Shown one piece after another: positions 32,344 through 53,738 of a stretch of DNA of 64,000 nt; the first letter of the stretch is position 1, and every line of letters begins with the position of its first letter. Source of the DNA: Afifellaceae bacterium. GTDB lineage: Bacteria; Pseudomonadota; Alphaproteobacteria; Rhizobiales; Afifellaceae. The notes under the pieces are model-generated. The model was given only the letters and a program-made list of their open reading frames with translations. It made no database searches and was not told the origin of the DNA. The DNA is taken from NCBI GenBank assembly GCA_028284625.1, contig JANQRH010000013.1, forward strand, positions 62,001 to 126,000, read 5' to 3'. Both the position numbers and the translations under genes were made by a program.

Positions 32344-32383
32344 CCGACCGCCGCACCTTAGAATTGTCTACCGGGAAACCGCC

Positions 32384-32552
32384 TAGTGTCCCGAATCTGA
32401 CGTTCGCATCATTGTTCAGCCCGCTCCGAACGAACGTCAGATTCGATAGGGACACCAGGCAAAATATTGAGTTGAGTGCGGTTTTTGGGGTTTGAAGTTC
32501 CACTGATGAGCCCGCCGGAGCAATGGTAGGAACTTCAAACCCACCACACTGG
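32384..32552. repeat. Double-hairpin intergenic repeat, copy 1
   Basis: TAGTGTCCCGAATCTGACGTTCG/CGAACGTCAGATTCGATAGGGACACCA, then GAGTGCGGTTTTTGGGGTTTGAAGTTCC/GGAACTTCAAACCCACCACACTGG; same architecture as 50354-50517. Confidence 0.8.
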
Positions 32553-48478: not shown

Positions 48479-50320
48479 CTAAACGCCGACGCGCTGCTTC
48501 TTGCGGCCATCGGAATGGTCGGCGCGCGCCTTGTTGACCGCATCGCGCTCGCTCACCTCCGGCACGCCGACATCCCACCAGGCGTCGCCCGGCGTCCAGG
48601 TATAGGCGTCGGATTTCACGACAAGAACGGTCGTGCGGTCATTGCCCTTGGCCCAGCGGAACGCGTCTTCCAGATCGGTGAGGCTTTCCACCTTGCGTGA
48701 ATAGGCGCCCATGGAGGCCGCATGCGCGGCGAAATCCACGTCGACCTTGTTGACGATCTTGCAATCCTCGATCTGGTTGTTGAACGACGGCACGCCCTTG
48801 AAATTCTGCAGCCGGTTGATGACGGCGAACCCGCCATTGTCGCAGACGACGACGATCAGCTTATGGCCGGTCAAGACCGTCGAATAGATGTCGGAGTTCA
48901 TCATCAGGTAGGAGCCGTCGCCGACAAAGACGATCACGTCGCGGCCTTCATCCGCCATCTTGGCGCCCCAGCCACCGGCGATCTCGTAGCCCATGCAGGA
49001 GAAGCCGAACTCGCAGTCGAACGTGCCCGGCGTCTTGATCTGCCAGTTCTTGCAGAGCTCGCCCGGGAAGCCGCCGGCCGCTGTCAGCGCGAGGTCGGTG
49101 GCGTCGGCGGCGCGGTTCACCGCACCCACGACCTGCGCGTAGCTCGGTACGTCCGTGTTGGTCGGCTTGGTCGCCGCCGCCACCATGTCGTTCCATTGCG
49201 CGTATTCAGCTTGCGCGCGCAGCATCCACGATTCTTCCGCCGACCAGTCGCCGAGCGCGGCGGAGAGCTCCGCGAGACCTTCGCGCGCATCGGCGACTAC
49301 GGAGAGCGAGCGATGCTTGGTGGCGTCGAAGCGCGCAGCGTTGATGGCGACGAAGCGTGCCTCCGGCGAGAACACAGACCACGAGCCGGTAGTGAAATCC
49401 TGCAGCCGCGTGCCGACTGCGACCACCACATCGGCCTCGCCCGCGAGCGCGTTTGCGGAGGCCGCCCCGATCACCCCGATCGGCCCGGCATTTTGCGGAT
49501 GGTCGTGGACGATTGCGCCGCGCCCGGCGATCGTCTCCGTGACCGGAACGCCGTGTGTCCTGGCGAACTCCGTCAGCGCCTCTTCGGCGGCCGAATAGCG
49601 CACGCCACCGCCGGCGATCAGAACCGGTTTCTCCGCCGATTTGAGCAGCTCGGCAGCACGCGCGATCTCGCCGCTGTCCGGCCGCGGCCGGCGGATATGA
49701 TGGACGCGCGGCTCAAAGAACGCCTCCGGATAATCAAAGGCGATTTCCTGCGTGTCCTGGCAAAGACCGATGAAGGCCGGACCGCAATCGGCCGGGTCGA
49801 GCATGCACGCCACCGCCTGCGGCAGCGAGGAGATGATCTGCTCCGGATGCGTGATGCGATCCCAGTAGCGCGTCACCGCACGGAAGGCGTCGTTCACCGT
49901 GGTGGTAGGATTGTTGTAGTGCTCCACCTGCTGCAGCACCGGGTCGGGCCGGCGATTGGCGAAGACGTCGCCGGAGATGATCAGGATCGGCAGACGGTTG
50001 GCCATGGCCACACCCGCCGCCGTCACCATGTTGGCGGCACCCGGGCCGATGGAGCTGGTGGCCACCATGATCTGCCGCCGGCGCTTGGCCTTGGCGAAAC
50101 CGATAGCTGCCAGCGCCATGGATTGCTCGTTCTGGCCACGCCATGTGGGAAGGTCGTCCTGAACCGCCTCGAGCGCCTCCGAAAGGCAGGTGACGTTGCC
50201 GTGGCCGAAGATGGCGAAGACGCCCGGAAAGAGCGGCACAATCTTGCCGTCGATCTCAGTCTTCTGGTTGACGAGGTAGCGCACCAGGGCCTGCGCCATT
50301 GTCAGCCGGATGGTTGTCAT
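48479..50320 (-). CDS. iolD: 3D-(3,5/4)-trihydroxycyclohexane-1,2-dione acylhydrolase (decyclizing)
   Basis: ThDP-dependent fold; TIRLTMAQALVRYLVNQKTEIDG..FPGVFAIFGHGNVTCLSEALE; GYEIAGGWGAKMADEGRDVIVFVGDGSYLMMNSDIYSTV. Confidence 0.95.
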   Translation of the reverse strand: MTTIRLTMAQALVRYLVNQKTEIDGKIVPLFPGVFAIFGHGNVTCLSEALEAVQDDLPTWRGQNEQSMALAAIGFAKAKRRRQIMVATSSIGPGAANMVTAAGVAMANRLPILIISGDVFANRRPDPVLQQVEHYNNPTTTVNDAFRAVTRYWDRITHPEQIISSLPQAVACMLDPADCGPAFIGLCQDTQEIAFDYPEAFFEPRVHHIRRPRPDSGEIARAAELLKSAEKPVLIAGGGVRYSAAEEALTEFARTHGVPVTETIAGRGAIVHDHPQNAGPIGVIGAASANALAGEADVVVAVGTRLQDFTTGSWSVFSPEARFVAINAARFDATKHRSLSVVADAREGLAELSAALGDWSAEESWMLRAQAEYAQWNDMVAAATKPTNTDVPSYAQVVGAVNRAADATDLALTAAGGFPGELCKNWQIKTPGTFDCEFGFSCMGYEIAGGWGAKMADEGRDVIVFVGDGSYLMMNSDIYSTVLTGHKLIVVVCDNGGFAVINRLQNFKGVPSFNNQIEDCKIVNKVDVDFAAHAASMGAYSRKVESLTDLEDAFRWAKGNDRTTVLVVKSDAYTWTPGDAWWDVGVPEVSERDAVNKARADHSDGRKKQRVGV

Positions 50321-50353
50321 CCTCTCCTCCCGCGATCCGATTTTTGTTCGTTC

Positions 50354-50517
50354 TAGTGCCCCGAATCTGAAGTTCGGGGGAGCCGCAGCATGCTCAGAAC
50401 GAACTTCAGATTCGAAAAGGACACTAGGTCAATTTCTTATTCTAGTGTGGTTTTGGATTTGAAGCTCCTGAAGGCCCCCCTGCAAAAAGAGCAGGAGCTT
50501 CAAATCCACCACACTAG
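50354..50517. repeat. Double-hairpin intergenic repeat, copy 2
   Basis: TAGTGCCCCGAATCTGAAGTTCG/CGAACTTCAGATTCGAAAAGGACACTA, then TAGTGTGGTTTTGGATTTGAAGCTCCTG/CAGGAGCTTCAAATCCACCACACTA. Confidence 0.8.
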
Positions 50518-50593: not shown

Positions 50594-51715
50594 ATGGGCG
50601 TGAAACGGCTCGGCATCGGTCTGGTGGGAAGTGGCTTCATGGGCCGCTCGCACGCCTTTGCCTTCAATGCGGTGGGCCAGGTCTTCGACCTACCGTTCCG
50701 GCCGGCGCTTGCTGTGCTCGCCGATCGCGACGAAGCGATTGCGGCGGAGGCCGCCGGCGCCCTCGGCTTTGAGCGCGCGGTCGGCGATTGGCGGCGGTTG
50801 GTCGACGATGCAAGCGTCGATCTCGTGGCGATCGCCGCGCCCAACAGATTCCACAAACCGATCGCGCTGGCGGCGTTTGAGGCGGGCAAGCACGTCTATT
50901 GCGAGAAGCCGCTCGCCACGTCGCTCGCAGATGCGCGCGCCATGGTCGAGGCTGCCGAGCGTTCCGGCCGCGTCGGCCTGGTCGGCTTCAACTATCTGAA
51001 GAACCCGATCATCGCGCTTGCCCGAGAGATGATCGAAGCAGGCGAGATCGGCGCACTTGTCGCCTTCCGCGGCATCCACGCGGAAGATTACATGATAGAT
51101 CCCGACGCGCCGCACAGCTTCCGCACCGAGCCGGAGGGCGGCGGCGTCCTCATGGATCTCGGCAGCCACATCGTATCGCTCGCCCGCCATCTGGTCGGTC
51201 CGATCGAGGAGGTGTCGGCGATGGCGGCAACGGTGCACGAAAGCCGTCCAGCCGATGGCGCACGCCGGACCGTGCCGGTTGAGGACCACGGACATCTCGT
51301 CGCGCGCTTTCAGAACGGCGCGCTCGGTGCGCTGAGCGCCAACTGGCTGGCGCCGGGGCGGAAGATGCAGCTTGAATTTGAGCTCACCGGCACGCGCGGC
51401 ACGATCGCCTTCACCCAGGAGCGCTTCAACGAACTGCGCGTCTACGCTGCCGGAGACCCGCCCGGCCGTGGCGGCTTCAAGACGATCGTCGCCGGCCCCG
51501 ATACGCCGCCTTACGGCCGCTTCTGCCCGGCGCCGGGCCACCAGCTCGGCTTCAACGACCTGAAGACCATCGAGGTCGCGCATCTCATCGCCGCCATCGC
51601 CGGCGAGGAAGCGCCGAGCCCCGACTTCCGAGAGGGCTACGAGGTCCAGCGTACGGTGACCGCCGCCCTGCGCTCAGCCAAGGAGCGGAACTGGGTGCGT
51701 GTCGACGGCGTGTGA
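50594..51715 (+). CDS. Gfo/Idh/MocA family oxidoreductase
   Basis: IGLVGSGFMGRSHAFAF; KHVYCEKPLATSLADA; FNYLKNPI; LMDLGSHIVSLARHLVG. Confidence 0.9.
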   Translation: MGVKRLGIGLVGSGFMGRSHAFAFNAVGQVFDLPFRPALAVLADRDEAIAAEAAGALGFERAVGDWRRLVDDASVDLVAIAAPNRFHKPIALAAFEAGKHVYCEKPLATSLADARAMVEAAERSGRVGLVGFNYLKNPIIALAREMIEAGEIGALVAFRGIHAEDYMIDPDAPHSFRTEPEGGGVLMDLGSHIVSLARHLVGPIEEVSAMAATVHESRPADGARRTVPVEDHGHLVARFQNGALGALSANWLAPGRKMQLEFELTGTRGTIAFTQERFNELRVYAAGDPPGRGGFKTIVAGPDTPPYGRFCPAPGHQLGFNDLKTIEVAHLIAAIAGEEAPSPDFREGYEVQRTVTAALRSAKERNWVRVDGV

Positions 51716-51725
51716 CGCCCGTTCG

Positions 51726-53600
51726 CTACTCCACGGGTCGAAAAGTCAACTCCGTCCCCGGCAATGAGCCATAGGTGAACGGCTGCTGTTGGTTGTTGGT
51801 CGCAGCCATGACGGTGTCGCGCACCTTGGCGAACATCAGCCGGATGTCGAGCCCCGGCTCGCCGAGATGCTGCACGAACGCCGAAACAAACGGGCTGTTA
51901 TCGCCTTCGCCGTCGAGCGCCACCTGTCCGTCACGCGCCGCATAGGCGACCAGCGTCCCACCCGTCGGCTCAATGCGCGCCAGGCCACGGCCGATTGAGC
52001 GCGTCGTGACGGTGCGCTGCATCTGCGCGGCGAAGGGATTGTCGCGGCAGGCGTCGAGGATGACGAGCCGCAGCGTGTCGGCGCCGCCCGCTGCCTCCAG
52101 CACATCGTCGAGTGACACGGTCTCCAGCCGCACATGCCGGTCCTGCTTAAGCTGCGCGTCGACCGGCACGAGATAGTTTTCGCCATCCATCTCCATGCCG
52201 TGGCCGGCGAAGTAGATGACCGCCCAATCGGCGCTTTGCGCACGACCGGTGAAGTCGATCAGCGCCCGCTCCATGGCCTGCTTCGACAGGTCATTGAGGA
52301 GCTCAACCTCGGCAAAGCCGAGCCGGCGGAACGCATCGGCCACGGTCTGTGCGTCGCGTTTCGGGTTCGGCAGCTTGGATACGGAATGATAGTTGGAGTT
52401 GCCGATCACCAGCGCGACGCGCCGATCCGGCAGGACGACGGGATCCGGCTGATCGGGCCCTTGCTCCAGCACCGCCAGCTGCTCGCGGGCCGTGCGGTGC
52501 GCCCACTCGCCGTTCTCGTATTTCTGCGGCACCGCAAGCGCGGCTCGAAACTCCGCGATGGCGCGTTCGGTGTCGCCCTTCTGCTGATAGGCAAGCGCGC
52601 GGCTCGTATAGGCGGCGGTGTATTCCGGGTCGGCGCGGATGGCCTGCCCGAAATCGGCGATCGCCTGATCGTAATCACCCTTGTCGACATAGACATTGCC
52701 GCGGTTGCGATAGGCGGTGGCGTGATCGGGATCGAGCTCCAGCGCCTTGTCGTAGTCGGCAATCGCCAGGTCGTATTCGCCCTTGTAGCGATAGGCGAGG
52801 CCGCGATTGTTGAAGGCTGTTGCGTAATCGGGATCGAGGCGGAGCGCCTCGTTGTAGTCGGCGATGGCGCGGTCGTATTCGCCCTTGCGCCGATAGGCGA
52901 GGCCGCGATTGCTGAAGGCTGACGCATAGTCCGGATCGAGTTCCAGCGCCTTGTCGTAATCCGCGATCGCTAGGTCGTATTCGCCTTTGTAGCGATAGGC
53001 TACACCACGATTGTTGTAGGCGGTGGCGTAATCCAGCTTGATCCGGATGGCCTCGCTGTAATCCGCGATCGCCTGGTCGTAATCGCCCTTCAGCCGGTAG
53101 GCGATGCCGCGATTGTTGAAGGCGGTACTGTAATCCGGTTTAAGGCGAATGGCCTCGCTGTAATCTGCGATCGCCTGGTCGTAGTCACCCTTGTAGCGAT
53201 AGGCACGGCCACGATTGTGGTAGGCGGTGCTGTAGTCGGGCTTGAGGCGGAGGGCCTCGCTATAGTCGGCGATCGCCTGATCGTAATTACGCTTGTAACG
53301 ATATGCGAGGCCGCGATTGTTGAAGGCCGTGTGATAGTCGGGTCGCAGCCGGATCGCCTCGTTGTATTCCGCGATTGCCCGGTCGTAATCGCCGCTGCGT
53401 CGGTAGCCGCGGCCACGATAATTGTGGGCCGTGGCGCGGTCGTAGGCGTTGAGCGCAGTGTCGCCGAGAACGCGCGTGCAACCGTCGATGGCCGTCTGCG
53501 CCTTGCTTGACTTGCAATCGCTCCAATCGGCGTCGCTTGCGGCGTGCGCATTGGTAGCAAGCAGCACGGCTGCAAAAAGAAGCGGAAGCTTGAGGCGCAT
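51726..53600 (-). CDS. Secreted TPR-repeat protein with C-terminal caspase-like (peptidase C14) domain
   Basis: Signal peptide MRLKLPLLFAAVLLATNAHA; about 9 tandem 34-aa TPRs; RVALVIGNSNY, YFAGHGMEMDGENYLVP (His), LVILDACRDNPF (Cys). Confidence 0.92.
   Translation of the reverse strand: MRLKLPLLFAAVLLATNAHAASDADWSDCKSSKAQTAIDGCTRVLGDTALNAYDRATAHNYRGRGYRRSGDYDRAIAEYNEAIRLRPDYHTAFNNRGLAYRYKRNYDQAIADYSEALRLKPDYSTAYHNRGRAYRYKGDYDQAIADYSEAIRLKPDYSTAFNNRGIAYRLKGDYDQAIADYSEAIRIKLDYATAYNNRGVAYRYKGEYDLAIADYDKALELDPDYASAFSNRGLAYRRKGEYDRAIADYNEALRLDPDYATAFNNRGLAYRYKGEYDLAIADYDKALELDPDHATAYRNRGNVYVDKGDYDQAIADFGQAIRADPEYTAAYTSRALAYQQKGDTERAIAEFRAALAVPQKYENGEWAHRTAREQLAVLEQGPDQPDPVVLPDRRVALVIGNSNYHSVSKLPNPKRDAQTVADAFRRLGFAEVELLNDLSKQAMERALIDFTGRAQSADWAVIYFAGHGMEMDGENYLVPVDAQLKQDRHVRLETVSLDDVLEAAGGADTLRLVILDACRDNPFAAQMQRTVTTRSIGRGLARIEPTGGTLVAYAARDGQVALDGEGDNSPFVSAFVQHLGEPGLDIRLMFAKVRDTVMAATNNQQQPFTYGSLPGTELTFRPVE
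52580..53430. repeat. In-frame ~102-bp tandem repeat array encoding TPRs
   Basis: Repeated (A/T)AxxNRGxAYRxKGxYDxAIADYxxALxLxPDY units at 34-codon spacing. Confidence 0.8.
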
Positions 53601-53738
53601 GGTCGTTCCCCCACGGCTGGCGCTAGCGCCGAGTCTGACGCAAATCGCCCGCGGAGCCAACCGCCACGCCGCAAGCGAGCGCACCCTCAGCCGTTCACAG
53701 TGCCGTTAACGAACGAGTATGGCAGAGCGCTTTCACAA

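Follow-up and report, generated by a model that had tools for sequence, protein, structure and literature searches.

The 64,000-nucleotide stretch of Afifellaceae DNA analysed here (the window) contains two copies of an intergenic repeat that folds into two hairpins, and between the copies several stem pairs differ on both sides with pairing retained. Such changes raise the question of whether the hairpins are selected for their structure or are the ends of a mobile element, copied as a pair. Both copies named in the original prediction are present (Table 1), but copy 2 begins one base further upstream than proposed, at 50353 rather than 50354. The three pair changes are also found as described, with GACGTTCG/CGAACGTC in copy 1 versus GAAGTTCG/CGAACTTC in copy 2, and GGGTTTGAAGTTCC/GGAACTTCAAACCC versus GGATTTGAAGCTCC/GGAGCTTCAAATCC. 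The first had been read as C-G to A-T; most copies of the family carry A-T here, and this one of the three changes arose on the side of copy 1, from A-T to C-G.

Table 1. Features of the double-hairpin element and its neighbours, in positions of the window.
Feature	Position	Strand	Remarks
Copy 2, full element with its two CTAG flanks	50353..50517	+	A-to-B orientation; 165 bp
Left CTAG, target-site duplication	50353..50356	.	single CTAG at congener empty site L146; 94-copy comparison
Hairpin A, outer to inner CTAG	50353..50427	+	bulge on linker-side arm
Linker GTCAATTTCTTATT	50428..50441	+	14 nt
Hairpin B	50442..50517	+	diverged inverted version of hairpin A
Right CTAG, target-site duplication	50514..50517	.	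empty site and 94-copy comparison
Copy 1, other copy within the window	32383..32552	+	between CBS-domain gene and VOC-family gene
iolD (context, outside the element)	48479..50320	-	TIGR04377, 862 bits versus cut-off 715
Divergent Gfo/Idh/MocA-type dehydrogenase gene (context)	50594..51715	+	levoglucosan dehydrogenase model 318 bits, below cut-off 650

Each hairpin consists of a lower stem of ~9 bp that starts with CTAG, a bulge of ~4 nt on the linker-facing arm and, above it, an upper stem of 14-16 bp with a ~24-nt loop. Between the inner CTAGs lies a linker with the family consensus CAA..TTATG(A/T)TTC. The whole element is at the same time one large imperfect inverted repeat, in which hairpin A resembles the reverse complement of hairpin B, and its loops, which had been called unrelated, are diverged yet homologous. 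Over 94 copies the length is near-constant (161-181 bp, median 168), and the stems differ greatly between subfamilies. The element has no coding capacity (stops in all six frames in 66 of 94 copies). The fold of copy 2 lies far above chance, with z = -8.5 as RNA and z ~ -10.4 as DNA on both strands; an Rfam scan at the locus returned nothing close to threshold. Of the 94 long copies, 38 carry GANTC where the linker ends, compared with ~3.5 expected; the motif also occurs in the stem of hairpin A and is not placed in the apical loop.

Other palindromic sequences were seen in or beside some copies. In Stappia sediminis (L142, ~1594-1855, G050:C13), a different palindromic element of ~240 bp, with ends GGTCTGGACC and CTAG on both sides, lies within the linker of one copy, and a 14-nt remnant, GGTCTGGACCCTAG, is present in that of L052, as if after excision or deletion. 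One hairpin of L079 (1245-1500, G215) is enlarged to ~160 nt, and a normal copy adjoins it. Another palindromic repeat, CCATTCTGATTCAATCAGAATGG, which carries GANTC, adjoins or replaces an element copy in the left flank of L121 (G001) and in L148.

The genomic setting of copy 2 is largely as proposed: iolD is confirmed by its model, and the divergent gene matches Gfo/Idh/MocA-type models but reaches no equivalog cut-off. Copy 2 lies 32 bp from the start codon of iolD and 76 bp from the start of the dehydrogenase gene; a scan for sigma-70 promoters and terminators found none. In the congener, both flanks of copy 2 align around an empty site, and thus the element is dispensable for the iolD/dehydrogenase arrangement. 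From its position between these two genes, we suggest that such elements may alter regulation where they insert. Further along, at 51726-53684, translation inspected by eye gives a reading frame with seven tandem 102-bp (34-amino-acid) TPR-like repeats (52552-53463) and, after them, a caspase-like domain.

Insertion at CTAG and distribution of the copies

Empty sites were compared for L146, L105, L010, L011, L008 and L006, with L108-L110 left out. At the congener site that corresponds to copy 2 (L146), CCGATTTTCCCCTTTACTAGCTAAACCCGC contains one CTAG, compared with a CTAG on both sides when the site is filled; the congener site of L105 likewise has one CTAG. For L010, the empty site reads TTAG then CTAG, L011 gives nearly the empty-site pattern with the CTAG one base short, and at L008 a remnant of the element remains at the congener site. 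Across 94 copies, the left and right sides agree over four bases (identities of 0.95, 0.80, 0.71 and 0.91) and drop almost to background outside them, which sets the length of the duplication at four bases. The window holds far fewer CTAG sites than expected (27, versus 207 on composition and 72 under a second-order model), and the targeting of CTAG is thus strict. As a guide to the target, the inner tetranucleotide was dropped, since by eye the inner and outer sequences often differ (L003, L010, L032 and L037).

The copies also bear signs of recent activity. In Parvularculaceae OFTM380 (G778), ~20 copies with 98-100% identity occupy different CTAG sites, although many of them lie at contig ends, so that some may be the two ends of one copy. 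This genome also contains two tandem copies with one common CTAG, together with single-hairpin derivatives, and two copies of the congener G001 that lie at contig ends share 98% identity across 162 nt. The burst, the tandem copies and the near-identical pair point to recent transposition. With the empty sites and the 4-bp CTAG duplication, they bear out the earlier suggestion of a mobile element with ends that are copied together, as well as the target-site duplication that was to be looked for.

A search by BLAST and by a covariance model built from 29 copies found 17 full copies in the home genome (two of them in the window), ~37 in the congener (Afifellaceae MAG PL25a_bin.15, G001) and more than a dozen in Stappia sediminis (G050). 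Of 398 genomes sampled from the order, 73 gave a match to the covariance model, spread over 33 of 141 genera; for the class the figure was 19 of 385. Nine further genomes sampled from the home family, all from outside the home genus, gave none. DNA-pattern matches were obtained in Bradyrhizobium, Afipia, Novosphingobium, Sphingobium, Magnetospira, Parvularculaceae, Roseibium, Nitratireductor and others. The distribution of the element is patchy across many alphaproteobacteria. Among plasmids, the long form matched only in Roseibium/Labrenzia, and a shorter two-hairpin form (see below) gave no match. Internal deletion derivatives, in which the 5' arm of hairpin A is joined to the 3' arm of hairpin B, were seen in G001 (L157, L158) and G778 (L396-L398); in these, one hairpin is left between two CTAG or near-CTAG sites.

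Search for the mover

We consider the feature, with good though not full confidence, to be a non-autonomous mobile DNA element of ~165 bp whose ends work as hairpins and which is moved by an enzyme encoded elsewhere. The data show that insertion takes place at CTAG with duplication of CTAG, and that both ends are DNA hairpins, in halves that are inverted, diverged and joined by the conserved linker. In the mechanism that we propose, the enzyme would recognize the hairpin ends, and probably the linker too, and would make a cut at CTAG that is staggered by 4 nt. It would be uncommon for a DNA transposase to have ends that are set by their pairing and not by their sequence.

Searches with transposase models did not bear out the suggested cognate RAYT or IS enzyme, as both Y1/RAYT and IS630 are absent from the home genome and from many other carriers. 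For Y1/RAYT (PF01797), there was no match in the home genome (G000), G050, G089, G152, G178, G039, G145, G364 or other carriers; for IS630 (DDE_3), there was none in G000, G001, G050, G089, G152, G178, G098 or G204. DDE_3, DDE_Tnp_1, DDE_Tnp_1_2 and DDE_5 had no match in G000 or G098, and the sole DDE_Tnp_1_2 match in G001 was sub-threshold. IS4/IS5 (two models) and IS701 likewise found no support as the resident mover: the home genome had no match to them, and several other carriers lack each of them. In the named genomes, the genes that recur beside copies were only clustered reading frames, unrelated or frame-shifted, with no transposase among them; in G001, what lies between two copies separated by 0.94 kb is a membrane-protein reading frame and no transposase. 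Single-hairpin copies from Parvularculaceae and Magnetospira were considered as ends of a larger element; read with short flanks, they look more like deletion derivatives. No autonomous partner element was found, and the two halves of the element are diverged inverted versions of each other. The mover may have been lost after the burst, or may be of a family outside the models used.

These searches bear on a rival explanation, in which the repeat is a MITE that belongs to an ordinary DDE insertion sequence (IS630, IS5 or IS701 type), with an autonomous partner that is gone from the sampled genomes or escaped the models. The element is non-coding, is dispersed in multiple copies and has a target-site duplication, as MITEs do. 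A CTAG duplication would fit the targets of IS5/IS701-type (YTAR) or IS630-type (TA within CTAG) elements, which counts for a MITE, and transposases are commonly lost once a burst is over. However, the DDE models had no match in G000 or G098 and only the sub-threshold match in G001, which nevertheless carries 98%-identical copies, and the terminal sequence past CTAG varies between subfamilies, unlike the fixed ends of insertion sequences. We therefore regard a DDE-derived MITE as rather unlikely.

Paired changes in the stems

Three pairs between two copies are weak evidence for covariation, which is confirmed by 29 copies from three genomes. In an alignment of these copies built without reference to structure, 14 of 43 pairs are changed on both sides, with 75 double-changed cells compared with 22.6 +/- 3.3 in shuffles. 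When the partner was slid by one to three columns as a control, only 1-13 double-changed cells were left and the signal was lost. With more copies the covariation thus did not fall to the chance level that would have spoken against the original prediction. An alignment of 78 diverse copies, fitted to the structure in a way that favours pairing, has 96% Watson-Crick pair cells and at least three Watson-Crick types at 26 of 43 pairs. Across 39 disjoint nearest-neighbour contrasts, which take away most of the effect of relatedness, we counted 130 double Watson-Crick changes versus ~40 expected with independent arms (summed over five bins).

The behaviour of copies that have stayed in place is different. 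Seven insertions are common to the home genome and G001; their stems diverge by 2.8%, compared with 6.3% for the loops (p = 0.01) and ~6% for the flanks (L009/L121 subtracted because of a non-orthologous left flank). All 17 changed pairs in these insertions are one-sided, with no double change in place, indicating that inserted copies mostly decay; the slower change of stems than of loops indicates that some constraint or repair also acts in place. The hairpin constraint is present at the level of the family and is weak in any single inserted copy, and the original interpretation is supported in part. If the ends of the mobile element act as hairpins or cruciforms and not as fixed sequences, lineages that keep moving would keep their pairing while the stem sequence drifts, and compensatory changes would result; after insertion, copies would decay slowly.

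Paired changes can also be supplied by template switching, in which one arm is copied onto the other during replication. At the first of the quoted pairs, copy 1 has C/G, its orthologue L121 in G001 has C/T and the family has A/T; in this single case, it looks as though the second arm of copy 1 was altered in place to match the first, consistent with template switching. Such quasi-palindrome correction could in principle account for the covariation by itself, with no selection on structure and with a mobility independent of the hairpins, and the equal numbers of G-U and A-C leftovers described below would agree with this. Yet the in-place case is the only one, and the two hairpins, their bulges, the length and the linker are kept through near-complete turnover of the stems in many genera, so that copying from arm to arm is insufficient alone. 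Template switching as the sole cause is unlikely, and we think it probable that it supplies some of the paired changes in a mobile element with hairpin ends.

One-sided changes in the nearest-neighbour contrasts are split almost evenly, with 37 G-U and 33 A-C. As selection on RNA from one strand should favour G-U, the constraint or process acts most likely at the level of DNA rather than RNA; selection on RNA, as the structure probing first put forward implied, is unsupported by this balance. A structured RNA element (a 5' leader, mRNA stabilizer or small RNA) that is kept for useful hairpins in the transcript would explain the very stable fold, the slower change of stems than of loops in orthologous copies and the position of copy 2 in a divergent promoter region near the iolD start. 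In addition to the even G-U/A-C counts, such an element is at odds with the occurrence of copies in both orientations, the absence of copy 2 from the orthologous place in the congener, the missing Rfam match and the lack of double changes in place, and we judge it improbable.

Relation to known small elements

To our knowledge, REPINs leave no 4-bp duplication. The least probable reading is that the repeat is of REPIN type, with a RAYT (Y1) transposase as its mover: inverted hairpin pairs with a tetranucleotide foot, compensatory changes and tandem clusters are shared with REPINs (PMC3116915), but the hairpins here are much longer than REP units of 20-40 bp, CTAG is not among the GTAG/CGTC tags (PMC3733652), CTAG is duplicated, and the home genome and many other carriers have no resident Y1 transposase. 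The TA-target MITEs Correia/NEMIS, ERIC and RUP are likewise small, non-coding and palindromic with a TA-containing target duplication, but they form one end-to-end stem (PMC2229807), in contrast to the two separate hairpins of the element, for which no insertion sequence with matching ends was found.

The layout is closest to that of the CcrM-associated intergenic repeats (CIR) of Caulobacter and Brucella (Chen and Shapiro 2003), which are ~110 bp long with two arms and a linker (PMC2229807). Both are intergenic and alphaproteobacterial, with two long inverted repeats as arms joined by a linker, TA termini and GANTC (PMC2229807). They differ in length, at ~110 bp versus 161-181 bp, and in the placement of GANTC, which is at the terminal loop in CIR versus the linker end and the hairpin A stem in the element. 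RIME1, the Rhizobium-specific intergenic mosaic element credited to Osteras et al. 1995, reportedly has ~108 bp and two large palindromes. Two-hairpin repeats of 106-114 bp from Stappia and Parvularculaceae have the size and layout of both CIR and RIME1; the long form differs from RIME1 in length. Among these, the 114-bp repeats of Stappia (L151-L154) have a linker, e.g., CTCAAGATATTGATTCTGGAG, that matches the long-form linker CTAG-CAAGATATTGAATC-TAG. On descriptions of layout and size, we treat the long form as a longer variant of the CIR/RIME kind; because its length and GANTC placement depart from those of CIR, we do not file it as a member.

A 2007 review gave the target duplication of CIR as unknown and called for more information on how these repeats move (PMC2229807). 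The CTAG duplication, the empty sites, the fresh burst and the tandem copies that share a CTAG are direct handles on the movement of this two-hairpin architecture, and the target site, the empty sites and the activity are newly shown here for this longer variant. It is conceivable, and we put it forward tentatively, that the element and probably CIR and RIME form a superfamily moved in trans by an undescribed structure-reading transposase that cuts CTAG with a 4-nt stagger, perhaps with replication timing through CcrM/GANTC.

The two forms also meet in G778, where L393 and L394 (3071-3176 in each) contain a CTAG-bounded, RIME-like two-hairpin repeat of 106 bp, and at both places a solo hairpin of the long family is inserted at the first CTAG.
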